Shown here: positions 3,175 to 49,117 of the stretch, one piece after another
How the letters are laid out: each line of letters begins with the position of its first letter
Numbering within the stretch: the stretch's first letter is position 1
Assembly (NCBI RefSeq): GCF_001412575.1
Contig: NZ_CP011834.1
Coordinates: 124,001 to 188,000 of the forward strand
Length of the DNA: 64,000 nucleotides
Source: Limnohabitans sp. 103DPR2
GTDB taxonomy: Bacteria > Pseudomonadota > Gammaproteobacteria > Burkholderiales > Burkholderiaceae_C
Direction: 5' to 3'
Program-made: the position numbers and the translations under genes
The notes under the pieces: generated by a model
Told to the model about the DNA's origin: nothing
The model's input: the letters and a program-made list of their open reading frames with translations, nothing else
The model's database searches: none

Positions 3175-5142
3175 ATGACCAAAAAGACCCATGCCTTTCA
3201 GGCCGAAGTAGCCCAGCTGCTCCATTTGGTAACGCATTCGCTGTATTCCAACCCCGAAATTTTTGTTCGCGAGTTGGTGTCCAACGCGTCCGACGCTTGC
3301 GACAAGCTGCGCTTTGAAGCGCTCAACAACGATGCGCTTTATGAGAACCAACCCAACTTGGAAGTTCGTTTGTCATTTGACACCGAAGCCAAGACACTGA
3401 CCATCGCTGACAACGGCATTGGCATGACGGCGCAAGAAGCCATCGACAACTTGGGCACCATTGCCAAGAGCGGCACCAAAGACTTCATGAGCAAACTGTC
3501 GGGCGATCAAAAGTCTGATGCGCAACTCATTGGCCAATTTGGCGTGGGCTTCTATTCGGGTTTCATTGTGGCCGACAAGATCACAGTCGAAACACGCCGT
3601 GCAGGGGCAACGGCGTCCGAAGGCGTGCGCTGGATCAGCGGCGGTACAGGCGACTTTGAAGTTGAAACCATTGAACGCGCACAACGCGGCACCAGCATCA
3701 TCTTGCATTTGCGCGAAGACGCCTTGCAATACGCCAACACTTGGAAACTGAAAGAAATCGTTGGCAAATATTCCGACCACATCAGCTTGCCCATCTTGAT
3801 GGAAAAAGAGGAGTGGAAAGACGGTGAACTCATTGGCAAGGACGAGAGCGAAGGCCGCAAACCCGGCGGCATGGTGAAGACTGGTGAGTGGGAAGCCATC
3901 AACAAAGCCACCGCTTTGTGGACCCGCCCCAAAAAAGACGTCACCGACGAACAGTACAAAGAGTTCTACAAGCAAATCAGCAAAGACTTTGCCGAGCCGC
4001 TCACCTGGACACACAACCGCGTGGAAGGCAGCACCGAGTACACACAGCTTTTGTACATTCCTTCACAAGCCCCGCATGACTTGTGGAACCGTGATAAAAA
4101 AGCCGGCATCAAGTTGTACGTCAAGCGCGTCTTCATCATGGACGATGCCGAAGCGCTCATGCCCAGCTACTTGCGCTTTGTCAAAGGTGTGGTCGACTCT
4201 GCGGATTTGCCTTTGAACGTCAGCCGTGAGTTGCTGCAAGAAAGTCGTGACGTTAAAGCCATTCGCGAAGGTTGTACCAAGCGCGTGTTGTCCATGTTGG
4301 AAGACTTGGCCAAACACAACGAAGCGCCTAAGGCTTCTGAAGATGGCGTGACCGATGTGGTGAGCGAAGAAGACAAAGCCAAACAAGGTCAGTACACCCG
4401 CTTCTACAAAGAGTTTGGCGCGGTACTCAAAGAAGGCTTGGGCGAAGACTTTGGCAACCGCGAGCGCTTGGCCAAACTCTTGCGCTTCGCCTCCACTTCA
4501 TCTGACGAAGTGAGCGTGTCCTTGGCCGACTACAAAGCGCGCATGAAAGAAGGCCAAGAAGCCATCTACTACATCACCGCGGAAACACTGGCCGCTGCCA
4601 AGCACAGCCCTCAATTGGAAGTGTTCAAGAAGAAGGGCATTGAAGTCTTGCTCATGACCGACCGCGTAGACGAGTGGGCCTTGAACTTCATGCACGAGTT
4701 TGATGGCACCCCCATGCAAAGCGTGGCCAAGGGCGCCTTTGACTTGGGCAGCTTGCAAGACGAAGAAGAAAAGAAAGCAGCTGAAGAAGCCGCTGAAACC
4801 TTCAAGCCTTTGCTGGCCAAATTGAAAGAAGCTTTGAAAGACAAAGCCGAAGACGTGCGCGTCACCAGCCGCTTGGTGGACTCACCTGCTTGCCTGGTGG
4901 TGACCGACAACGGGATGAGCATGCAGCTGGCACGCATGTTGAAGCAAGCGGGTCAGCAAGCGCCTGAATCCAAGCCTGTGCTGGAAGTCAACCCTGAGCA
5001 TGCGCTGGTCAAGAAGCTCGAAGGCTCTGTGCACTTCCATGACTTAGCCAACATTTTGTTTGACCAAGCTTTGTTGGCTGAAGGCGGCATGCCAGATGAT
5101 CCAGCAGCTTATGTGCGCCGTGTGAATGCGCTGTTGGTTTAA
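3175..5142 (+). CDS. htpG: Chaperone protein HtpG (Hsp90)
   Basis: A 655-residue cytosolic Hsp90 ATPase that helps fold client proteins under stress. The GHKL ATP-binding domain holds [18 protein letters not shown] (catalytic Glu and Mg-binding Asn), [12 protein letters not shown], and the lid motif [11 protein letters not shown]. The middle domain has the client and arginine region [19 protein letters not shown]. The C-terminal dimerisation domain is complete. An in-frame TTG two codons upstream (3169) is ignored in favour of the ATG. It is a monocistronic gene between a sigma-32-like promoter and a strong hairpin terminator. Confidence 0.97.
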
Positions 5143-5164
5143 TTCAAACCATTTGCATTTCAAT

Positions 5165-5194
5165 GAACAAGCCGCCTTCGGGCGGCTTGTTCGT
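5165..5194 (+). terminator. Intrinsic terminator between htpG and srkA
   Basis: A 12-bp perfect stem (GAACAAGCCGCC at 5165-5176, its complement at 5181-5192) closes a TTCG tetraloop and is followed by GTTTC. It lies 22 nt after the htpG stop and 8 nt beyond the end of the convergent srkA gene, so it can serve both, although the U-run is short on each side. Confidence 0.85.
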
Positions 5195-5200
5195 TTCTGC

Positions 5201-6331
5201 TCAAACCACCAACAGCGGTTCTTGCATTTGCTCGATCTGCTCTTCCAACATTTGAACTTGGCCGCGCCAATAATCAGGCGTGCCAAACCACGGAAAGTTG
5301 ATCGGGAAAATGGGGTCGTCCCATCGGCGGGCTAGCCACGCGCTGTAGTGCACCAAGCGCAGTGTTCGCAGCGGCTCAATCAAGGCCAGTTCACGTCGAT
5401 CAAAATCACGTACTTGCTCATACCCCTCCAGCAACATGCTCAGTTGACCTGAGCGCTGCTTGCGATCTCCCGACAAGAGCATCCACAAGTCTTGCACAGC
5501 AGGTCCCATGCGCGCATCGTCTAAGTCCACAAAGTGCGGGCCACCGCCTGGCAGGTCTGCAGGTGTCCACAAAATATTGCCTGGATGGCAATCGCCATGC
5601 AAACGCAACATTTGAAAATGCGGCCAATCGCTGCCATGCGCAGACCCTAAGCCAGCGGCATGCATCACGTCCATGGCCTGTTGCCACGCATCTTGCCATG
5701 CGCGCTCGACTTCCATGGGAATCGCTTTGTGCTTGAACAACCAATCCTTGGGCTCTTGCATGAAGGTGTCGATGCTGAGGGCGGGACGATTGTGAAAGGG
5801 CTGGGCAGCCCCCACGGTATGAATGCGCGCTAGAAAACGGCCAATCCACTCGAGCACTTCGTCATCGTCCAACTCAGGCGGACGACCGCCGCGTCGTTCA
5901 CTGACGGAAAAAGAAAAACCTTGAAACGCCTGGCCCTGCAAAGCAAGCTTCGCAGAATTTTCTGCAAACGCTTTGTGATGCAAGGTGTGGCCTTGCAAAT
6001 TGAGCGGCGGCACCACGGGCACTTCTGCAGCGACCAACTCCGCCGCAAAGTCATGTTCTTCTTGAATCTGCGCATCTGTCCAACGACTGGGCCGGTAAAA
6101 CTTAGCGACCACACTGGTGGGCACAGGCGTACCATCGGTTTGCGTGGGTGTGCGCTCGGTCTCCAATTGAATTTGATAGACGCGGTTTTCGTAGGAGCTG
6201 AGCGCCGTCAGGCGACCATCGCCCATCAAGGCGATGTCGGCCAATGCATCGAGAACGGCATCAGGCGTGAGTGAAGCATATGGATGCAAAGCGTCCCACT
6301 CGGATGGCCCTTGGGGGACTTCATTTGTCAT
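5201..6331 (-). CDS. srkA: Stress response kinase A (SrkA/YihE)
   Basis: A 376-residue kinase of the aminoglycoside-phosphotransferase/choline-kinase fold. Visible motifs are SYENRVYQIQL near the nucleotide loop, VVAKFYRPSRW with the ATP-anchoring Lys, LHGDCHPGNILW as the catalytic loop and FVDLDDARMGPAVQDLW as the metal-binding loop. In E. coli SrkA is a Ser/Thr protein kinase that counters stress-induced programmed death downstream of Cpx. Its start overlaps the end of the upstream kinase-USP gene by 11 nt, so it is the last gene of a signalling operon whose other members are a phosphatase and a second protein kinase. Confidence 0.9.
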   Translation of the reverse strand: MTNEVPQGPSEWDALHPYASLTPDAVLDALADIALMGDGRLTALSSYENRVYQIQLETERTPTQTDGTPVPTSVVAKFYRPSRWTDAQIQEEHDFAAELVAAEVPVVPPLNLQGHTLHHKAFAENSAKLALQGQAFQGFSFSVSERRGGRPPELDDDEVLEWIGRFLARIHTVGAAQPFHNRPALSIDTFMQEPKDWLFKHKAIPMEVERAWQDAWQQAMDVMHAAGLGSAHGSDWPHFQMLRLHGDCHPGNILWTPADLPGGGPHFVDLDDARMGPAVQDLWMLLSGDRKQRSGQLSMLLEGYEQVRDFDRRELALIEPLRTLRLVHYSAWLARRWDDPIFPINFPWFGTPDYWRGQVQMLEEQIEQMQEPLLVV

Positions 6332-10293: not shown

Positions 10294-11109
10294 TCAAGCC
10301 CTGAAACGTTTGCGCGTTAAGGCCAGTGCCACCCAAAACGCAGCCGCAGCAACACCCACCAGCAAACACACGTTGCCCACAAAGTGTTGGGGCCATTGAT
10401 CGAGGAAAAGTGGCCGCACCATTTCAACGGCGGCCGTCAATGGCAAATACGAGGTGATGGTTTGCAACCACTCAGGCAATTGCGTGCGCGGAAAATAAAT
10501 GCCCGACAAAAACATCATGGGCGTGAGAAACAAGGTGAAGTAATACGTGAAAAAGTCGTAGCCTTTTGCCAATGCATTGAAGATCAAAGCAATGCAGCTG
10601 AAGGTCACCCCCACCAACCACAAAATGGGCCACGCCAACAACAATTTCCAGCTGTGCGTGATGCCCAACACCAACATGACGCCCAAAATGGCGGTCACTG
10701 TGAAGATCGCTTTGTAAGCGGCCCACAGCATTTCGGCCATCACCACATCGTCGAGGCGAACCGGTGCGTTCATGATGCCGTCCCACGTCTTTTGCATGTG
10801 CATGCGAGAGAAGGCTGAATACAAAGCTTCAAAAGACGCCGCATTCATGGCACTCATGCAAATGCTACCGCTGGCCAAGAACAAGATGTAGGGCACTTGC
10901 TGCCCGCCGGTGTTCACCTCGCCCACCAAAGCACCCAGGCCATAGCCAAAGGCCACCAACCACATAAGGGGTTCGGCAATGTTGCCCACCAAACTGGGAA
11001 TGGCCAACTTGCGCCACACCAACAGATTGCGCAAGAACACAGGCCACCAGCGCATTGAGAGTTGCGGCGGCGCCCATACTGAAGGGATGACATGCTGTGT
11101 GTTCATCAT
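10294..11109 (-). CDS. ABC-2 type transporter permease (NodJ-like)
   Basis: A 271-residue integral membrane protein with about six hydrophobic segments of the ABC-2 exporter type. It includes the N-terminal LRWW-like stretch [18 protein letters not shown] and the [16 protein letters not shown] region seen in NodJ relatives. The ATG at 11109 overlaps the ATPase stop as ATGA and has an AGGGAGAA ribosome site; a longer open frame reaching 11196 is ignored because it runs into the ATPase gene. With the ATPase it forms a two-gene exporter; NodIJ exports lipochitooligosaccharides in rhizobia, but here the cargo is unknown. Confidence 0.87.
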
Positions 11110-12035
11110 GCGTTCTCCCTGATTTGACGGCCGGTGAGTTTCAAAAATAAATCCTCCAAATTGGCAGGGCGGTGCAGACTGCGAATGTGCGGCCAAGCAT
11201 GCAATGCCAGCAGCAAAGGCTCAGCTTGTGAGGTATAGAAAAAGACCGTTTCGCCACTAACTTCAACACGCGCCGCATGTTGTCTGAGTGGCGAGTCTTT
11301 GGCGGCCAAAGCCAAGGCGCCTTGGCCATACAACTCCACCACATCGGGCTCGAGGTGCTGTGCAATCAAATCGCGCGGCTTGCCTTCTGCAATTTTTTGG
11401 CCATGGTCAATCACCAACAAACGATCGCACAAGCGCTCTGCTTCGTCCATGAAATGCGTCGTGAGCAAAATCGATTTGCCTTCTTGCATCAGCATTTGCA
11501 AACGCTCCCACATCAAATGGCGCGCTTGTGGATCGAGACCTGTGGTGGGCTCGTCCAACATCAGCATTTGTGGTTGGTTGATGAGGGCCCGCGCCAAACT
11601 CAAGCGGCGCTTCATGCCACCCGACAATTCACCCGGCTTGGCTTTGGCCTTGCTGGTCAAGGCGCCAAACTCAAGCAGCGGTGAAATGCGCGCTTTGATG
11701 TCACGGTCTTTCATGCCGAAATAGCGGCCATAGACCAACAGGTTTTCTTCGGCCGTGAAGTCGGGGTCTAAGGTGTCCATTTGCGCCACCACACCCAAGC
11801 GCGATTTGATGGCCAGCGCATCTTGGGGCATCGACAAATTGTCGAAGTAAGTGATGCTGCCTGTATCGGGTGTGGTGAGCCCCAAACACATGCGCAAGGT
11901 GGTGGTCTTGCCAGCACCGTTCGGACCAATCACGCCCAAGCATTCGCCAGGGGCGATGTGAAACGACAAATCGTTCACCACGGTGTTGTCGCCAAAGCGT
12001 TTAACGAGGTTTTTTACGTTCAATAAATCTGTCAT
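11106..12035 (-). CDS. ABC transporter ATP-binding protein (NodI-like)
   Basis: A 309-residue ATPase with Walker [12 protein letters not shown]-loop [17 protein letters not shown], signature [15 protein letters not shown], Walker [13 protein letters not shown] and the switch histidine in [13 protein letters not shown]. The [15 protein letters not shown] segment is typical of NodI/DrrA-type exporter ATPases. About 85 C-terminal residues follow the nucleotide domain. It is translationally coupled to the permease gene and probably forms a homodimeric or heteromeric exporter with it. The substrate is not known. Confidence 0.92.
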
Positions 12036-40466: not shown

Positions 40467-41663
40467 TCAGTCGCTGCCCAGCGCCAATTTGCTAGGCTGA
40501 CGTTTCTCCACAGAGAAACGCAGCAACGACGCCGTTCTGAAAATGCCGTGTGCAAATTTGCCGTAAGGCAAAGTCAAAAACAAGGCCATCACCAAGCCCA
40601 AATGCAGTGCCAACAATGAAGGCATGGCGGCGGTGTTTCTGGACAGCATCAAGGCCAAACCTGTGACACTGATCAAGAACAACAAAGCAATGAAGCCACG
40701 GTCCATCGGGCGTTGTTGGACATCGCCGTGGTTGGGGTCGCGTGCCAAATTAAGACGCCACAAGCCCAAGGTGCCAAGCGCCAAAGAAATGCCGCCGATG
40801 GTGCCCAAGAATTTGGGCAGGCTGGTGAAATCGTAAGGCGCTGGCCAGCCAAAAGCATAGTGGTACAGGGTGGCCACACTGGTCGCAGCAAAGCACAACA
40901 TGAACCCGTAAAACGTGAGGTGGTGCGTGCGTTTGCGCGCCAAGGTGAAGGCGTCGTCTTCGTTGTTGCAACCATCGCCATGGCCACCGCCCAAGTACTT
41001 CAACTTCAGCGCATCGTGCGTGGCCTCGGCTGCTGCAGGTGTACTCAAAGGCGCGCCACTGGTGGCAGGGGTCACATCTTTCCAAAACTTGCGCACGCCC
41101 ATGCCCAGCGCAAACACAGCCCACAAGAAAACAGGCGCAAACAAACTCACCATGAGGTTGTGCGGAAAGATGGCGTAGAAACCTTGTTGGCCGTTTTGCA
41201 CCAACGGACCCCACAAGGTGCCATTGCTTTGCAACGCCAGCAACATGAACAAAGTCAAACTGGCAGCCAGGGCCAAAGACAGTGTCAAACCATTGCGTTG
41301 GTAAAGCTTGCCAAGCGCTGGCGGCCAGGCGTAATCGGCATAGGTTTGTCCGCGCACAGTGGCCATGGCCTTGGGCACATTGATGGCAAATTCATGTGGC
41401 GGTGCGTACTGACAGGCGTGCAGACACGCGCCGCAGTTGTGGCACAAATTGGCCAAGTAATGAATGTCGGCTTTGCCAAATTCCAAGCGCCGCGTCATGG
41501 CCGGAAATACCGCACAGAAGCCTTCGCAATAACGGCAGCCATTGCAAATTTGAAGTTGACGGGCAACCTCTTTTTCAGAACCCGTTAAAACGATTTCGCC
41601 ACGCGCCAAAGCTTGTGCTTCTTGTGTCAATTGCTGAAGTGTTTGCATTGTTGTTCTTCTCAT
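40467..41663 (-). CDS. tcuB: Tricarballylate utilisation protein TcuB
   Basis: A 398-residue Fe-S/membrane protein that reoxidises the FADH2 of tricarballylate dehydrogenase and passes electrons to quinone. Two ferredoxin-type clusters are visible in the first 90 residues: [17 protein letters not shown] and [18 protein letters not shown]. About six membrane helices follow (for example [20 protein letters not shown]), with [19 protein letters not shown] between them. The start overlaps the tcuA stop by 4 nt. The role is known from Salmonella TcuB. Confidence 0.93.
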
Positions 41664-43150
41664 GCAGACACGAAAGTGTCTAAGTCGGCAGTGCCTTGCA
41701 TGACACGCTGTGCCAAGGTGGGCACTGAAGCGGGTGTACCCAAGGCAGCACGCGCAGCCTGTTCACCGGAGATGCGTCCAAAAGCGGTGCCAATGGTCAT
41801 GCCCACACCGGCGGTATAGCCCTTGCCCAATACGTTTCCGGCCATCATCTCACCCGCCACAAACAAGTTGGGGCTGGCTTGGTCTTGAAACCTGACAGCG
41901 GTGGTCTCGTCGGTCTTCAAACCAAGGTACGTGAAAGTGACGCCAGGTTTGACGGGATACGCATAAAAAGGTGCGGTATCGAGCGGCAAGGCCCAGTGTG
42001 TTTTGGCCGGCGTCACGCCTTCGGTATGGCAATCGTCCAGCACGGTGTGGTCAAAATGACCGGGCACGCAAGCTTGGTTGTAGGCATTCAAGGTGGCCAT
42101 GAAGGTGTCAACATTCAAGCCCAACTTCTGCGCCAAATCGGGCAGTGTTTGCGCCACAGTGCCTTCAAACACGGGCGGCATGAAGCGGCCTACGGCTTTG
42201 GCATCCGTGATGGAGTAACCAACTTGACCAGGTTGCTGCGCCACCAAGCGGCCCCAAATGGCATAACGCTTGGGCCAAAAATCTTCGCCTTCGTCGTAGA
42301 AGCGTTCGGCATTCTTGTTCACCACCACACCCAAGGAAACGCAATCGATTCGGGTACAAATGCCGCCGTCGTACAAAGGCGCACGCGCATCAATGGCCAC
42401 CATGTGGGCTTGTGTGGGATCGCCAATTTGGTCAGCACCTTTGTCAAGCAAATGCTTGAGCAAAGTGCCCTGGTTGAATTTGGTGCCGCGAATGAGGAAG
42501 TTGTCCGCCGGAAATTCGCCTTGCGCGTTTTGACCCCATGCCTCTTTCAGCCAAGGAATATTGGATTCAAAACCACCCGCCGCCATGACACAAGCTTTGG
42601 CCGTGATGCGCTCGGTGCGCAAGACCTCGCCTTGGGGTGACTTGTGCTTCACCAACGCGGCTTTGAAGACACCGTTTTCCAACTCGAGTTCGTTGACTTC
42701 AGCGTTGTAGTGAATTTGAATCCCGAGTTTTTCGGCGCTGCGGTAATACGCATTGATCAGCGCTTTGCCACCACCCATGAAAAACGCATTGGTTCGCGCT
42801 GTGTGCAAGGCACCCGACAAAGAGGGCTGAAAGCGCACACCATGCTTGACCATCCAAGGGCGGCAATGGTGGGAGTGGCGAATGGCCAATCGCGCCATGT
42901 GCTCGTCGGTGAGGCCGCCAGTCACTTTGAGCAAGTCTTGCCAAAACTCTTCTTCTGGGTAGGCTTCGACCAACACATCTTGCGGTGCATCGTGCATACA
43001 GCGCAAATTGCGTGTGTGCATCGAGTTGCCACCACGCCATTCACGCGGCGCAGATTCGAGCACCATGACACTGGCGCCAGCTTCTCTGGCCATCAACGCC
43101 GCACTCAACGCAGCGTTTCCACCACCAATGACCAAGACATCCAAACTCAT
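41660..43150 (-). CDS. tcuA: FAD-dependent tricarballylate dehydrogenase
   Basis: A 496-residue flavoprotein of the fumarate reductase type. The FAD site is at the N-terminus: [20 protein letters not shown]. The substrate side shows [20 protein letters not shown] and the late [20 protein letters not shown]. It oxidises tricarballylate to cis-aconitate, which then enters the TCA cycle. It is coupled to tcuB by an ATGA overlap, and 28 nt upstream lies a TctC receptor, in place of the TcuC permease of Salmonella. Confidence 0.92.
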
Positions 43151-43178: not shown

Positions 43179-44189
43179 TCAATCGGCCTTGATGTCTGCG
43201 CGTTTAACGATGTCGCTCCAAATGCGCTGCTCATTTTTAATGAAAGCGGCAAATTCCGTCGCAGGGCCGCCACCGCCCACCGCGTTGTCAGTCGCGAAGC
43301 GTTCTGTGACTGCACTTGATTTGAGCGCTTTGTAAGACTCCTCTTGCAAGCGCTTCACAATCTCAGGCGGTGTGCCAGCGGGGGCCATGATGCCGTACCA
43401 CTGTGAGGTTTCGAAATCCTTAAAGCCCAACTCAGCCACTGTGGGCACATCGGGCAATGCAAGAATGCGCTGCTGCGTACCCACCGCAATGGCGCGCAAT
43501 TTGCCGCTGCGAATGTGCGCACCCAATGCGGGCATGCCCGCAGAAGAAGCTTGTGTGCGGCCGGCCAACAAATCCGTCAACTGAGGGCCCGTGCCGCGGT
43601 AAGGAATGTGCGTGATGTACATGCCGGTCACCAACTTCAAATACTCCATGGCCAAATGACCTGCGCTGGCATTGCCAGCAGAACCATAATTGAGTTGACC
43701 TGGGTTTTTCTTGGCATAGGCCACAAACTCTTTGAAGTTTTTGGCGGGCACATCGGGGTGAATCACAAACACATTGGGCACTTTGGCCAGCAATGTGACC
43801 GGCATGAAGTCTTTGTTGACGTCGTAGGGTTGGTTTTTCAGCATGTACGGATTGACCGCCAAGGTGCCCACGTGACCCAAGATGATGGTGTGTCCATCGG
43901 GTGCAGCCTTGGACACGTCCACCATGGCCGTGACGCCGGCACCGCCGGGTTTGTTCTCAACATAGACACTGACACCCAATTGCTTGGTGAGCTCGGCCGC
44001 CACGGAGCGCGCCACAATTTCGCTGGTGCCGCCAGGGGCAAAGGGCACTACAAAGCGAATGGCTTTGCTGGGCCAATTGCTTTGCGCTTGGGCACTGGAT
44101 GTTGCCAGGCCTAAACCACCCGTTGCCAATGCAGCGCCCATCGCCAAGGCACCGACTTCGCGGCGGTTGTAAGTTTTTTCTTGTGTCAT
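43179..44189 (-). CDS. TctC/Bug-family periplasmic binding protein
   Basis: A 336-residue secreted receptor. The ATG at 44189 has a GGAG site and starts with a Tat-like leader (TYNRREVGALAMGAALATGG). The mature protein shows IRFVVPFAPGGTSEIVARSV, ENKPGGAGVTAMVDVSKAAP, and YITHIPYRGTGPQLTDLLAG. The ligand is probably a tricarboxylate, as the gene immediately precedes tcuAB on the same strand. TctA and TctB are not in the window. An open frame to 44267 runs over the next gene and is not used. Confidence 0.9.
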   Translation of the reverse strand: MTQEKTYNRREVGALAMGAALATGGLGLATSSAQAQSNWPSKAIRFVVPFAPGGTSEIVARSVAAELTKQLGVSVYVENKPGGAGVTAMVDVSKAAPDGHTIILGHVGTLAVNPYMLKNQPYDVNKDFMPVTLLAKVPNVFVIHPDVPAKNFKEFVAYAKKNPGQLNYGSAGNASAGHLAMEYLKLVTGMYITHIPYRGTGPQLTDLLAGRTQASSAGMPALGAHIRSGKLRAIAVGTQQRILALPDVPTVAELGFKDFETSQWYGIMAPAGTPPEIVKRLQEESYKALKSSAVTERFATDNAVGGGGPATEFAAFIKNEQRIWSDIVKRADIKAD

Positions 44190-44241: not shown

Positions 44242-44997
44242 TTAGAACTGATAGCGGCGCAAACCACCGTCCACAGGAATCACGGCACCTGTGATGTAGC
44301 TGGCCAAGGGTGACGACAAGAAGGTCACCAAGTTGGCCATGTCTTCAGGTTCGCCATAGCGGCCCATGGGAATTTCGTTTTCGCATTGCCACTGACGGTA
44401 TTCAGGGGTGTAGTTGCGGAAAATTTGTTCGGAGTGAATGCGGCCAGGCGGTATGCAGTTCACGGTGATGCCGTGGGGTCCCACCATGCGCGACAAGCCT
44501 TTGGCCCAACTGTGAATACCCGCTTTGGCACAGAAAGCACCATTCACGTGATCGGGTTCGCTCTTGCCTGTGATGTTGATGATGCGGCCCCATTTGCGTG
44601 CAATCATTTGATCGATCAAGGCATCGGCTACTTGGCGGGGGCGGTGAAAGTTCAAAGTGATGGCTTCTTGCCACGCCTCTTCACTCACATGCAAATCTTT
44701 GAAGCTGCGTGAACCGCCAGCGTTGTTGACCAAAATGTCGACATGGCCCAAGCCTTGAATGGCAGCTGATGTGAGTTGGGCAGCGGCGTCTGCAGCATAC
44801 AAGTCCGATTCAATGATCACTGGCGGCAAGCCACCAGAGGCCACAATTTCTTGCGCCAATTCCTCCAACTTTTCTTTGCGCCTTGCAGAGATGGCAACCC
44901 TCACACCTTCGGCAGCCAATGCTTTCGCAATACCGCGGCCAATGCCCACACTGGCGCCCGTGACCAGTGCTGTTTTGTTCTTGAGTTGCAAATCCAT
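44242..44997 (-). CDS. Short-chain dehydrogenase/reductase, atypical active site
   Basis: A 251-residue SDR with a normal Rossmann start (ALVTGASVGIGRGIAKAL) and NNAG motif (DILVNNAGGSRSF). The C-terminal PVDGG motif is present. The catalytic segment is unusual: instead of YxxxK the sequence reads NGAFCAKAGIHSWAKGLSR, with no Tyr four residues before the Lys. The preceding Ser is part of NITGKSEP. It may be a non-classical SDR or have lost redox chemistry. It lies between the LysR gene and the tctC-tcuAB set on the same strand, so it probably belongs to that catabolic group. Substrate unknown. Confidence 0.85.
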   Translation of the reverse strand: MDLQLKNKTALVTGASVGIGRGIAKALAAEGVRVAISARRKEKLEELAQEIVASGGLPPVIIESDLYAADAAAQLTSAAIQGLGHVDILVNNAGGSRSFKDLHVSEEAWQEAITLNFHRPRQVADALIDQMIARKWGRIINITGKSEPDHVNGAFCAKAGIHSWAKGLSRMVGPHGITVNCIPPGRIHSEQIFRNYTPEYRQWQCENEIPMGRYGEPEDMANLVTFLSSPLASYITGAVIPVDGGLRRYQF

Positions 44998-45089: not shown

Positions 45090-46001
45090 CTAGGCCAATT
45101 GTTTTTTTCTGCGCAGTGCAGATGATAAATGCTCATGGAACATGGCTGCGGCGGGTCGCAACGCAGCGCCTTGCTTGCGCAACAGACCCAAACTTCTAGA
45201 AATAGTGGGCTGCCGTAAGGGAAGGCCAATCACAGCGGCATGGTTCACGGGCAGGGCCATGCGTGGCACCGCTGCCAAGCCAAGGCCAGCCTCTACCATG
45301 CCCAACAAAGTACCAATGTGACTGACCTCAAAGGCAAAGTCGGGGTGCATGCCCGATTTGGTCATGGCATCGTCCAACAATTGACGGTTGCCGCTGCTGC
45401 GAGAAACAGAAATCAGTTGTTCTCCCTCGATCGCCGACCAGCTGATGGTTTTTTGCTTGGCCAGCGGATGGTCCCTTCTCATCGCCAAGACAAATGGATC
45501 GCTGTGAATGGCTTCAAACGTGATTTCTGGCATGAGATTGCTCATGAAGCCGATGCCGAAATCTGATTCACCCGTTAAAACACTTTGCAAAGTCTGGTTC
45601 ATCGACTCGTCAATTACACGAATGCGGATGGACGGGTATTTGGCAGAAAAACTGCGAATAACCTGTGGCAAAAAATAAAGTGCAGCAGAAGGCACACAGG
45701 CAACCGTCACGCGACCACTTCGGGTGGCCGCAATGTCAGAAATACCCAGCATGGCCGATTCAAGGTCATCAATGGCCGAGCGTGCCCGGTCTAGAAAAAC
45801 CCGACCCAAACTGGTCAACTCCACTTCCCGCGTGGTGCGATTGAACAAGCGAGTTCCGATGATGGACTCCAACTTTTCAATCCGTCGGCTGAGCGCAGGG
45901 GGCGACAAATGGATGTGATCGGCAGCTGAGCGAAAGCTGCCGCGTTCGGCCACAGCGATGAAGGCTTGCAATTGCTGCAAATCGAAATTGATGCGTTTCA
46001 T
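45090..46001 (-). CDS. LysR-family transcriptional regulator
   Basis: A 303-residue regulator with an N-terminal winged helix: FDLQQLQAFIAVAERGSFRS then PPALSRRIEKLESIIGTRLF. The C-terminal co-inducer domain begins near residue 90 (RVTVACVPSAALYFLPQVI). It is divergent from the tctC / PrpF-TctC pair, with 105 bp between starts, and precedes the SDR and tcu genes on its own strand. It is the only regulator in the island, so it probably controls both sides. A carboxylate co-inducer is inference. Confidence 0.9.
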   Translation of the reverse strand: MKRINFDLQQLQAFIAVAERGSFRSAADHIHLSPPALSRRIEKLESIIGTRLFNRTTREVELTSLGRVFLDRARSAIDDLESAMLGISDIAATRSGRVTVACVPSAALYFLPQVIRSFSAKYPSIRIRVIDESMNQTLQSVLTGESDFGIGFMSNLMPEITFEAIHSDPFVLAMRRDHPLAKQKTISWSAIEGEQLISVSRSSGNRQLLDDAMTKSGMHPDFAFEVSHIGTLLGMVEAGLGLAAVPRMALPVNHAAVIGLPLRQPTISRSLGLLRKQGAALRPAAAMFHEHLSSALRRKKQLA

Positions 46002-46106: not shown

Positions 46107-47063
46107 ATGATGACAATTAAAAAATGGATCGCAGCAATCTGTTTGCTGCCTGCAATGGCCGTTTGGGCTCAAACCGACAAACCGATCACCATCGTCGTTC
46201 CGACAGCGGCCGGCGGTGGCAACGATGCCATGGCACGCACGGTTGGACAAAAAATGAGTGTGCTGCTGGGTCGAACCGTGATTGTGGAAAACAAAGCAGG
46301 CGCCAACGGCGCTTTGGCGGCCGAGTACGTTGCACGCGCAGCACCCGACGGCAACACCTTGATGTTTGGTTACATTGCGACGCACGGCATGAACCCTGCC
46401 TTGCAAAAATTGCGTTACGACCCCATCAAAGACTTTGAGCCAGTGGGCCTGGTCGGTTACTCCCCCACAGTTTTGGTCGTCAACCCCACAGTGAAGGCCA
46501 AAGATGTCAAGGAATTGGTCAAGTTACTTAAGGACAAGCCTGACGCTTACAGCTTTGCCTCTGCTGGCAATGGCACAGCACCCCACTTCACGGCAGAGTT
46601 GTTCAAACTGACCACCCAAACGCAACCCCTGCATGTGCCCTACAAAGGCTCAGCACCAGCCATTACAGACACCATTGGAGGTCAAACCCAATTGATGTTC
46701 CCCAGTCTTTTTACAGCCTTGCCTTACATCAAATCAGGCAAACTCAACGGCCTGGCCATTGCGGGCGCGAAACGCTCAAGTGTCTTGCCTAACGTTCCCA
46801 CTCTGAAAGAGCAGGGCATTGACGGCGTCGATGTAGAACAGTGGTACGGTTTTTTTGCACCCGCTAAAACGCCCAAAGAAACCATTGCCAAACTGAATCA
46901 AAGCTTGAACAAAGCGCTGGCCGATCCTGAAATCATCAAACGTTTGGAAGGCCATGGTGCCGACGTTGAGTCGGGCACCCCCGAGCAGCTGGGTGATTTG
47001 GTTAAAAAAGATCTGGCCAAATGGCGAAGCGTCGTTCAACGCGCCAAATTGCAAGCGGATTGA
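46107..47063 (+). CDS. TctC/Bug-family periplasmic binding protein
   Basis: A 318-residue secreted receptor. ATG codons at 46107 and 46110 are both possible; a signal peptide (KWIAAICLLPAMAVWAQ) follows. The mature part has ITIVVPTAAGGGNDAMARTV, ENKAGANGALAAEYVARAAP, and the ligand loop HVPYKGSAPAITDTIGG. It ends in TGATG, so its stop overlaps the start of the PrpF-TctC fusion gene. The binding domain is about two thirds identical by eye, over the first 100 mature residues, to the C-terminal half of the next gene. Confidence 0.92.
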   Translation: MMTIKKWIAAICLLPAMAVWAQTDKPITIVVPTAAGGGNDAMARTVGQKMSVLLGRTVIVENKAGANGALAAEYVARAAPDGNTLMFGYIATHGMNPALQKLRYDPIKDFEPVGLVGYSPTVLVVNPTVKAKDVKELVKLLKDKPDAYSFASAGNGTAPHFTAELFKLTTQTQPLHVPYKGSAPAITDTIGGQTQLMFPSLFTALPYIKSGKLNGLAIAGAKRSSVLPNVPTLKEQGIDGVDVEQWYGFFAPAKTPKETIAKLNQSLNKALADPEIIKRLEGHGADVESGTPEQLGDLVKKDLAKWRSVVQRAKLQAD

Positions 47064-49117
47064 TGATGACCCATCGCAACATCCCATGCGTGTTGATGCG
47101 CGCAGGAACGTCTCGTGGGCCTTTCTTTCTTCGTGAATGGCTACCAGACAAGGATGCTGAACGCGATCAAGCCTTGATTGGCGCGATTGGCGCCTCCGAT
47201 CCTTTGCAACTGGATGGACTGGGCGGAGGCAGCACTTTGAACAGCAAAGTCGCCATCGTCTCTCCTTCCCAAAAGCCCGGCTGTGACTTGGATTATTTGT
47301 TTGCGCAAGTTGGCGTAGGTCACCAGTCTGTCGACACACGGCCTAATTGCGGCAACATGTTGGCCGGCGTCGCACCCTTTGCAATTGAGCAAGGACTGAT
47401 TGAAGCGCAAGAAGGCACCACCACCGTTCGCATTCACAACGTCAACACGGGCGCAACCATTGAGTCAACGGTTTGCACGCCAGGTCGCAAAGTCACTTAC
47501 GAAGGCGACGCACGCATTGACGGTGTTGCTGGTACCGCTGCACCCATCTTGCTGAATTTCTTGGACGCCTGGGGCGCAGTGACTGGCAAAGTTTTCCCAA
47601 CAGGCAATCGCATTGATGTTGTCGATGGCTTAGAAATCACTTGCATTGATGCCGCCATGCCTTTGATGATTGTGCGTGCGAAAGACATGGGCGTGACGGG
47701 GCGGGAACGTCCTGCTGAATTGGACGCCAACCGCCCCCTCTTAGAGCGCATTGAAAAACTCCGACTTGAAATGGGGCGGCGCATGGGCTTGGGCGATGTC
47801 ACAAACAGCGTGATTCCCAAACCTGTCTTGGTGAGTGAGGGGGATCAAGCTGACAGCATTGTTTCCAGATATTTCACGCCGCACAAATGCCACATGTCAC
47901 ACGCGGTCACAGGGGCCATTGGCGTGGTGACCGCTTTTGCCATGCCCGGCACTGTGGCCAGTGGCATCACGCGCAAAGCAGGCCGGCATCCATTGTCAGT
48001 GGTGCACCCGCAAGGACAAATTGATTTGGACGTTGAACTCACAGGCGAAGGCGTCAACCTCAATGTGGTGCGTGCAGCCTTGGTCCGAACTGCTCGAAAA
48101 ATCATGCAAGGCGAATTGCATTTGCCGCAGTACGTGTTTCCAAGTCCAAGCTCAGAAAAAATTGAAGCACAGAAATTGGCAGACCATTACCCACAGCACG
48201 AGGTCAAAATCATTGTGCCCACCAGTGCTGGGGGCGGTAACGACACCATGGCGCGCATCATCACGCGCAAAATTGGCCCCTTGTTGGGCAATGTGGTGAG
48301 CGTGGACAACCGAACAGGCGCTAACGGCAGCGTGGCCGCAGAGTATGTTGCGGCTTCTCAGCCCGATGGTCACACACTGATGTTTGGCTACATCGCAACG
48401 CATGGCATCAACCCGGTGATGCAATCGCTGCGCTACAACCCTGAGCAAGACTTTGCACCTGTCGGCATGGTCGGTTACTCGCCCACACTGCTGATAGTGA
48501 ATGCGGCCTTGCCTGTTCGGAATTTTCAAGACTTCATGGACCTGATGAGGACCACTGACAAGCCCTTGAACTATGCCTCCGCAGGCGAAGGCACCATTCC
48601 GCACTTGGCCGCGGAAATGCTTCGCAGAACACTGTCAGTTGAAGGCTCAAGCTTGACTGCGGGTGAACACCATGCAGGCGCAGCGCCAGCCATCAACGCC
48701 TTGGTGCGCGGCCAAGCCCAATGGATGTTTCCTAGTTTGTTCAGTGCCTTGCCTTACCTAAAGAGTGGCAAGGTCAAAGCACTGGCCATTGCCACACCCA
48801 AGCGTCTCACAGAATGGCCAGACATTCCTACTTTGTCAGAATGGGGCTTGGACGATTTCGACCTGACGCAGTGGTACGCCTTGTTTGCCCCAAGCGGCAC
48901 CTCACCTGAGATTGTGGACAAGATCAATCAAACACTGAATGAAGTGCTGAACGATCCTGAAGTGCGGGCCCGAATGGCGCAAGATGGTGCGCAGGTGAAG
49001 CCAGGTACACCGCAACAACTCTCACGACATGTGCAGACTGAAATTCAACGATGGCGAAAAGTCATTGCCAGCACGGGCTTGTCGACACACAGTCAAGTTG
49101 AGACAGCGGAAGCCTGA
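47063..49117 (+). CDS. PrpF/4-oxalomesaconate tautomerase-type isomerase fused to TctC domain
   Basis: A 684-residue fusion. Residues about 5-365 are a PrpF-family isomerase: IPCVLMRAGTSRGPFF, GGGSTLNSKVAIVS, the cysteine motif TRPNCGNMLAGVAPFA, and HKCHMSHAVTGAIGVV. Family members isomerise methylaconitate, aconitate or oxalomesaconate. After a short linker, residues about 381-670 are a TctC/Bug domain (VKIIVPTSAGGGNDTMAR, GANGSVAAEYVAASQPDG, FGYIATHG). The TctC domain has no signal peptide of its own, and its HVPYKG ligand loop is replaced by a longer AGEHHAGAAPA-type loop. The start at 47063 overlaps the stop of the neighbouring tctC. No stop or frameshift separates the two parts. Confidence 0.85.
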   Translation: MMTHRNIPCVLMRAGTSRGPFFLREWLPDKDAERDQALIGAIGASDPLQLDGLGGGSTLNSKVAIVSPSQKPGCDLDYLFAQVGVGHQSVDTRPNCGNMLAGVAPFAIEQGLIEAQEGTTTVRIHNVNTGATIESTVCTPGRKVTYEGDARIDGVAGTAAPILLNFLDAWGAVTGKVFPTGNRIDVVDGLEITCIDAAMPLMIVRAKDMGVTGRERPAELDANRPLLERIEKLRLEMGRRMGLGDVTNSVIPKPVLVSEGDQADSIVSRYFTPHKCHMSHAVTGAIGVVTAFAMPGTVASGITRKAGRHPLSVVHPQGQIDLDVELTGEGVNLNVVRAALVRTARKIMQGELHLPQYVFPSPSSEKIEAQKLADHYPQHEVKIIVPTSAGGGNDTMARIITRKIGPLLGNVVSVDNRTGANGSVAAEYVAASQPDGHTLMFGYIATHGINPVMQSLRYNPEQDFAPVGMVGYSPTLLIVNAALPVRNFQDFMDLMRTTDKPLNYASAGEGTIPHLAAEMLRRTLSVEGSSLTAGEHHAGAAPAINALVRGQAQWMFPSLFSALPYLKSGKVKALAIATPKRLTEWPDIPTLSEWGLDDFDLTQWYALFAPSGTSPEIVDKINQTLNEVLNDPEVRARMAQDGAQVKPGTPQQLSRHVQTEIQRWRKVIASTGLSTHSQVETAEA

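Follow-up and report, generated by a model that had tools for sequence, protein, structure and literature searches.

A PrpF-family isomerase joined in one frame to a TctC-type binding domain without a signal peptide in Limnohabitans sp. 103DPR2

The window analyzed here is a 64,000-nucleotide stretch of the Limnohabitans sp. 103DPR2 genome (contig NZ_CP011834.1, positions 124,001 to 188,000, forward strand). It holds a single open frame of 684 codons at 47063–49117, in which an isomerase domain of the PrpF family and a TctC-type solute-binding domain lie in one chain. The gene belongs to what is termed class B below, fusions whose linker lacks a signal peptide and a Shine–Dalgarno (SD) motif with a start codon. 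Its parts are:

47063..49117, plus strand: gene fusing a PrpF-family isomerase to a TctC-type domain, without signal peptide (class B), 684 amino acids
47078..48127, plus strand: PrpF domain, residues 6–355
48128..48190, plus strand: short hydrophilic linker, about residues 356–376, without SD plus start; predicted local distance difference test (pLDDT) below 50 at 358–370
48191..49084, plus strand: TctC-type binding domain without signal peptide, about residues 377–674; PTSAGGGND at 386–394, second-pincer P-Y-K replaced

A preliminary description of this DNA had proposed one frame joining a PrpF enzyme to a complete TctC-type domain. Both halves were recovered by Pfam, PF04303 (PrpF) matching residues 6–355 with 360.9 bits and PF03401 (TctC) residues 397–673 with 185.1 bits, each against a cut-off of 27. 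The TctC half carries the PxxAGGxxD motif as PTSAGGGND; this motif and the two pincers of TctC/Bug proteins are described in PMC5812351. In the PrpF half, K62 and C96 are invariant across 56 aligned fused proteins and align with K66 and C100 of LigU, residues that were changed in crystal entries. The LigU pair is presumably the catalytic lysine and cysteine, mutants of which are named in PDB titles.

As the preliminary description had claimed, the signal peptide of periplasmic TctC/Bug receptors is gone from the fused domain. The PrpF/TctC junction holds no hydrophobic stretch (best 15-residue hydropathy −0.45), and the linker holds no SD plus start ahead of the TctC domain. Judged from these features, the fused protein should stay in the cytosol. 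The fusion is present at 99% identity in two other assemblies and at 69–71% identity in five same-genus genomes, with no stop in any of them, and a sequencing error was therefore rejected. The artefact that had been allowed for at the outset, a lost stop or a family in which all relatives are split, was likewise ruled out, as the frame is open in all 55 class B loci described below. On this evidence the PrpF–TctC fusion is real and its predicted product is one protein of 684 residues.

Comparison with the TctC gene directly upstream gave 65 identical residues in the best 100, in line with the two thirds estimated by eye, and 49% identity over 298. The HVPYKG loop is changed and four residues longer in the window, as described; the insertion was not seen in L004–L008, the more distant same-genus fusions (L numbers denote the loci compared).

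Two kinds of junction were found among the relatives. Class B linkers of the search set have 11–26 residues, and 0 of 30 contain an SD-like motif with an in-frame start. The same was true of 0 of 25 class B linkers in a scan of named genomes, which covered the best 80 of at least 575 relatives (23 duplicates of the first set and 57 new loci). Class A linkers have 34–47 residues in the search set, reaching 72 in the named set, and an SD-like motif with in-frame start and a hydrophobic signal-like stretch is present in 28 of 28 in the search set. A linker cut at 30 residues misplaces L227 (32 residues, no SD or signal), which was counted as class B. The class A loci (L037–L049, L054–L064 in part, L131–L136 and L138) thus have an SD motif, a start codon and a signal peptide inside a continuous PrpF–TctC frame. 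Because these elements are retained, class A could yield a free secreted TctC besides the long chain, both as predicted products. Split pairs have the same gene order as the fusion, and their second gene may or may not be in frame with the first. A separate secreted TctC lies directly upstream in about half of the class B loci. At L061 (about 4173–5304), in a fragmented assembly, a class-A-like linker is interrupted by a stop within the signal peptide, and a complete TctC is missing downstream; this is either decay or an assembly error, and the locus was counted as PrpF alone.

The PrpF–TctC architecture, which the preliminary description had suggested seeking in other Burkholderiales, is conserved there. 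An open full-length fusion is present in 8 of 90 same-genus genomes, the window's own included. In four of the 90 (L009–L012) PrpF and a secreted TctC share one frame split by a single TAA just before the SD motif, an arrangement that appears close to the expected pre-fusion state; others have PrpF without the fused domain. The family search (399 genomes) returned 61 matches at E ≤1e-130, comprising 47 fusions (one cut by a contig end), 12 that are not fusions and 2 outside this classification. The order search (399 genomes) returned four matches besides the window's own, three of them fusions. The non-redundant tally, two plasmid records included, stands at 30 class B, 28 class A, 17 split pairs and 6 PrpF genes without a downstream TctC gene, and the 57 new named loci add 25, 11 and 21 of the first three kinds.

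Carriers of class B (30 + 25) are nearly all Burkholderiales, freshwater and soil bacteria. The named ones include Limnohabitans, Hydrogenophaga, Rhodoferax, Polaromonas, Variovorax, Pseudorhodoferax, Caenimonas and Massilia, and the labels include one metagenome-assembled genome called 'Modestobacter', one 'uncultured bacterium' and one 'Proteobacteria bacterium'. Named class A carriers include Ramlibacter, Rhizobacter, Sphaerotilus, Ideonella, Rubrivivax and Roseateles. No fusion outside the order was found among 33 loci examined from the class and phylum searches (E limit 1e-95, one genome draw); about a dozen further rows of those searches lie outside the 33. Among the loci examined, the alphaproteobacterial plasmid loci L129 and L130 are split or alone. 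In a Variovorax plasmid record the fusion is annotated as one coding sequence, '4-oxalomesaconate tautomerase', behind LysR and TctC genes in the same layout as in the window. No earlier account of a PrpF–TctC fusion was recognised in the literature, a weak negative, as most subscription papers lie outside the coverage.

Trees were calculated for both halves (careful trees with 43 of 103 TctC rows, omitting L137 and 12 of the 20 upstream copies, and with 30 of 80 PrpF rows). Duplicates, L018 and L094–L126 were dropped from the trees, and L129 from the residue and rate counts. In the PrpF tree, 29 of 30 class B rows are nested inside class A. The PrpF half of L137 groups with class A, and a single class B clade was disfavored by the approximately unbiased (AU) test (p 0.0006). 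The same-genus loci L013 and L014, where PrpF stops before the linker while the upstream TctC and TcuA/TcuB are retained, fall within class B (a class B that excludes them gave AU p 0.003) and for this reason appear to have lost the TctC domain. The TctC tree places the class B domains in a single clade, with support of 93 (30 rows) or 100/99 (14 rows without L137); this clade joins class A and a few split-pair domains with support of 95 and 99/99. Neither the window's upstream TctC nor its kin belong to the fused-domain group, while the upstream copies L021 and L022 lie inside it, among class A.

The preliminary description had viewed the fused domain as a duplicate of the adjacent upstream TctC. 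A copy made within the Limnohabitans lineage was rejected (AU p 1.2e-6), and the fused domains cluster apart. The trees suggest instead the sequence split pair, in-frame merger with an internal signal, signal loss. Reading the direction as split to fused relies on most split pairs being placed outermost in the tree. As class A still has the signal inside the frame, its loss probably followed the merger.

The genes around the fusion in the window are:

46107..47063, plus strand: TctC gene with a signal-peptide-like start; its stop overlaps the fusion start (TGATG)
45090..46001, minus strand: LysR-type regulator, divergent
44242..44997, minus strand: SDR-family oxidoreductase
43179..44189, minus strand: another TctC gene of the cluster
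41660..43150, minus strand: TcuA, FAD-dependent tricarballylate dehydrogenase (750.6 bits, cut-off 369)
40467..41648, minus strand: TcuB, tricarballylate utilisation 4Fe-4S protein (685.9 bits, cut-off 524)

The overlap of the upstream TctC stop with the fusion ATG makes translational coupling of the two genes probable. With TcuA and TcuB both above their cut-offs, the neighbourhood is that of a Tcu (tricarballylate utilisation) cluster. In the whole 2.95-Mb genome the fusion has 66 matches; nearly all are TctC genes, which marks solute-binding proteins as strongly expanded here.

The fused gene of many relatives is accompanied by genes for a CaiB-type CoA-transferase, a MaoC-like protein and a lyase resembling CitE/RipC, which at 145.9 bits stays under the RipC threshold of 375. 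A further companion is a protein of the adenylosuccinate lyase family (Tad-like below); among solved structures it matches trans-aconitate decarboxylase 1 best. This cluster, which recurs at L076–L078, L080, L081, L083–L088, L128, L131, L132, L136, L138 and others, is a probable bacterial route of aconitate-to-itaconate degradation. Counted over the neighbours (5 of 61 stretches being shorter than 14 kb), a Tad-like gene is present at 18/23 class A, 10/24 class B and 0/12 split loci, and TcuA at 3/23, 8/24 and 7/12, respectively; 16 of 24 class B loci have one or the other.

According to PMC4720413, a PrpF-family aconitate isomerase and trans-aconitate decarboxylase make itaconate in Ustilago, and trans-aconitate is an inhibitor of aconitase. 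TarA is reported in PMC11495376 as a PrpF-family aconitate isomerase of Bacillus. Given these precedents together with the TcuA/TcuB and Tad-like neighbours, the loci were read as serving tricarballylate or aconitate degradation, many of them via itaconate. We infer that the PrpF half is an aconitate delta-isomerase interconverting cis- and trans-aconitate. As the window's genome has no Tad-like match at 1e-60, the pathway there would deliver cis-aconitate to the citric acid cycle. The PrpF identity given in the preliminary description thus stands, and its substrate name, oxalomesaconate, is probably wrong in detail. The genome has another candidate for that task:

L231, 5646..7865 and 10530..11444 (about 1.525 Mb in the genome): second PrpF gene, directly followed by 4-oxalomesaconate hydratase, with 2-pyrone-4,6-dicarboxylate (PDC) hydrolase near

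This hydratase-linked PrpF is likely the true oxalomesaconate tautomerase, which would free the window's PrpF from that task. The window gene adjoins no oxalomesaconate hydratase cluster; its neighbours are TcuA/TcuB.

The explanation proposed, to which we give roughly an even chance, is that the window encodes an aconitate isomerase whose substrate is held by a tricarboxylate-binding domain that the enzyme has captured. A two-gene operon of an isomerase and a secreted TctC would have lost the stop between its genes, and in one large clade the internal signal peptide and ribosome site would then have disappeared, leaving one cytosolic protein. The TctC half may still bind a tricarboxylate such as aconitate and, flexibly tethered, would capture or buffer it beside the isomerase. 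Tethered capture was favored because pocket-like motifs are kept, the linker is flexible and holding trans-aconitate, as an aconitase inhibitor, would be beneficial. Capture or buffering rather than allosteric control is the least certain step, and allosteric control and a structural role are almost as likely.

Residue conservation and substitution rates bear on this step. The first-pincer P, both G, N and D and several other residues are invariant in class B. Among columns at least 95% conserved in 61 secreted and class A rows, 24 of 29 in pocket-like motifs are kept in class B compared with 48 of 78 elsewhere (Fisher p 0.04, which is weak because the motif ranges were chosen after viewing residue conservation); the assignment of motifs beyond the two pincers to the pocket is a guess. 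The ratio of nonsynonymous to synonymous substitution rates (dN/dS) of the class B TctC domain was 0.023–0.292 in 18 chosen pairs, several of which have dS >1 and hence saturated estimates. By these values the fused domain is under purifying selection. Its dN/dS exceeded the PrpF value in 16 of the 18 pairs; among 12 class A pairs the TctC half had the higher value in 3. The TctC/PrpF distance ratio had a median of 2.47 over 427 class B pairs, as against 0.86 over 376 class A pairs and 0.96 over 116 comparisons of split pairs. The upstream TctC of 15 class B loci gave a ratio of 1.52 (100 pairs), and over these pairs the fused domain gave 2.66. All these ratios are descriptive, as the pairs share branches.

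Several points, the dS saturation among them, weigh against substrate capture by an aconitate isomerase or against the history proposed for it. In class B the P-Y-K of the second pincer, which secreted relatives conserve at 95–100%, has disappeared or varies, and for this reason and because the domain evolves fast, ligand binding may be altered or lost. L013 and L014 manage without the fused domain. The predicted model leaves the domain orientation uncertain, with a predicted template modelling score (pTM) of 0.51. At 1e-60 the Tad-like gene had no match in the window's genome, nor in nine of the ten relatives tried; with its absence from the 12 split loci, the Tad link is thus not a property of the whole family. 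NCBIfam model NF033377 (4-oxalomesaconate tautomerase equivalog) scores the fusion at 492 bits, above its cut-off of 440. The TctC half of L137 groups with class B in the TctC tree that holds 30 class B rows, so that the PrpF and TctC trees conflict; L137 may represent a second signal loss with a long-branch effect, or a domain exchange. Finally, grouping class B with eight upstream copies gave AU p 0.198, and a deep common origin was not rejected.

One alternative, possible though doubtful and already raised in the preliminary description, is an allosteric sensor, in which the TctC half closes on its ligand and switches the isomerase. The retained pocket-like motifs would suit it, a ligand-closing binding-protein fold is a natural switch, and the fusion is old and maintained. 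Nevertheless, the L013 and L014 enzymes have no TctC domain, and the model has no confident interdomain contact. The preliminary description had proposed structure prediction for the domain interface: both domains are folded in the model (mean pLDDT 80.6) and the linker is disordered, while at pTM 0.51 the interface could not be read.

Just as doubtful is a structural passenger, a TctC domain that no longer binds ligand and persists by stabilising the isomerase or helping it to assemble. The high relative divergence in class B compared with class A and split pairs, the loss of P-Y-K and the dropping of the domain in two genomes are consistent with this; the low dN/dS and, weakly, the kept pocket-like motifs argue against it.

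A further reading, that the fusion is simply the 4-oxalomesaconate tautomerase of the protocatechuate/gallate pathway extended by one domain, is improbable. The NF033377 score and the nearest solved structures, YbhH and LigU, speak for it. Nevertheless, NF033377 gave 484–511 bits over the six PrpF proteins tried without separating them, and its name failed as evidence of the substrate. The hydratase- and PDC-hydrolase-linked PrpF elsewhere in the genome and the TcuA/TcuB of the window cluster also stand against it. An error of sequencing or annotation, or a frame that yields two products, is very improbable for the window: class A keeps an internal start and may make two products, but SD plus start is missing from 30/30 search-set and 25/25 named class B linkers, and all 55 frames are open.

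On the boldest reading, the clade may record a periplasmic nutrient receptor that became the substrate-holding or sensing half of a cytosolic catabolic enzyme through a surviving in-frame intermediate with a start and signal peptide of its own. Class A would make a free secreted receptor together with an isomerase–receptor chain that is membrane-anchored or cut by signal peptidase. We hold this idea tentatively, at rather less than an even chance. According to PMC5812351, Bordetella and other proteobacteria have a hugely expanded set of Bug/TctC proteins, and most of these proteins lack an evident membrane partner. An enzyme-joined, signal-less clade with living intermediates offers a direct way to probe TctC roles besides transport and to ask how a secreted domain becomes intracellular. 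Moreover, the label 4-oxalomesaconate tautomerase may, in these bacteria, cover genes that serve aconitate or tricarballylate degradation.

Among known systems, the best solved relatives are YbhH and LigU for the PrpF half and AdpC, 2dvz and MatC for the TctC half. LigU and YbhH are PrpF-family allylic isomerases solved as one such domain, whereas the window protein adds a TctC domain and has neighbours outside aromatic pathways. In contrast to the TctC/Bug proteins MatC (6hke), AdpC (5oei), BugD (2f5x) and BugE (2dvz), the window domain has no signal peptide, is joined to an enzyme and has a changed second pincer. The split prpF–tctC operon pair shares the gene order of the fusion and is an outer relative by tree, but it consists of two genes, the second with a signal-peptide-like start, and its loci have TcuA in 7/12 and a Tad-like gene in 0/12. 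Adi1 of Ustilago and TarA/TbrA of Bacillus belong to the same superfamily according to PMC4720413 and PMC11495376, and are likened here by description, not by sequence. Adi1 is paired with Tad1, and many class A and class B loci carry a Tad1-like gene.
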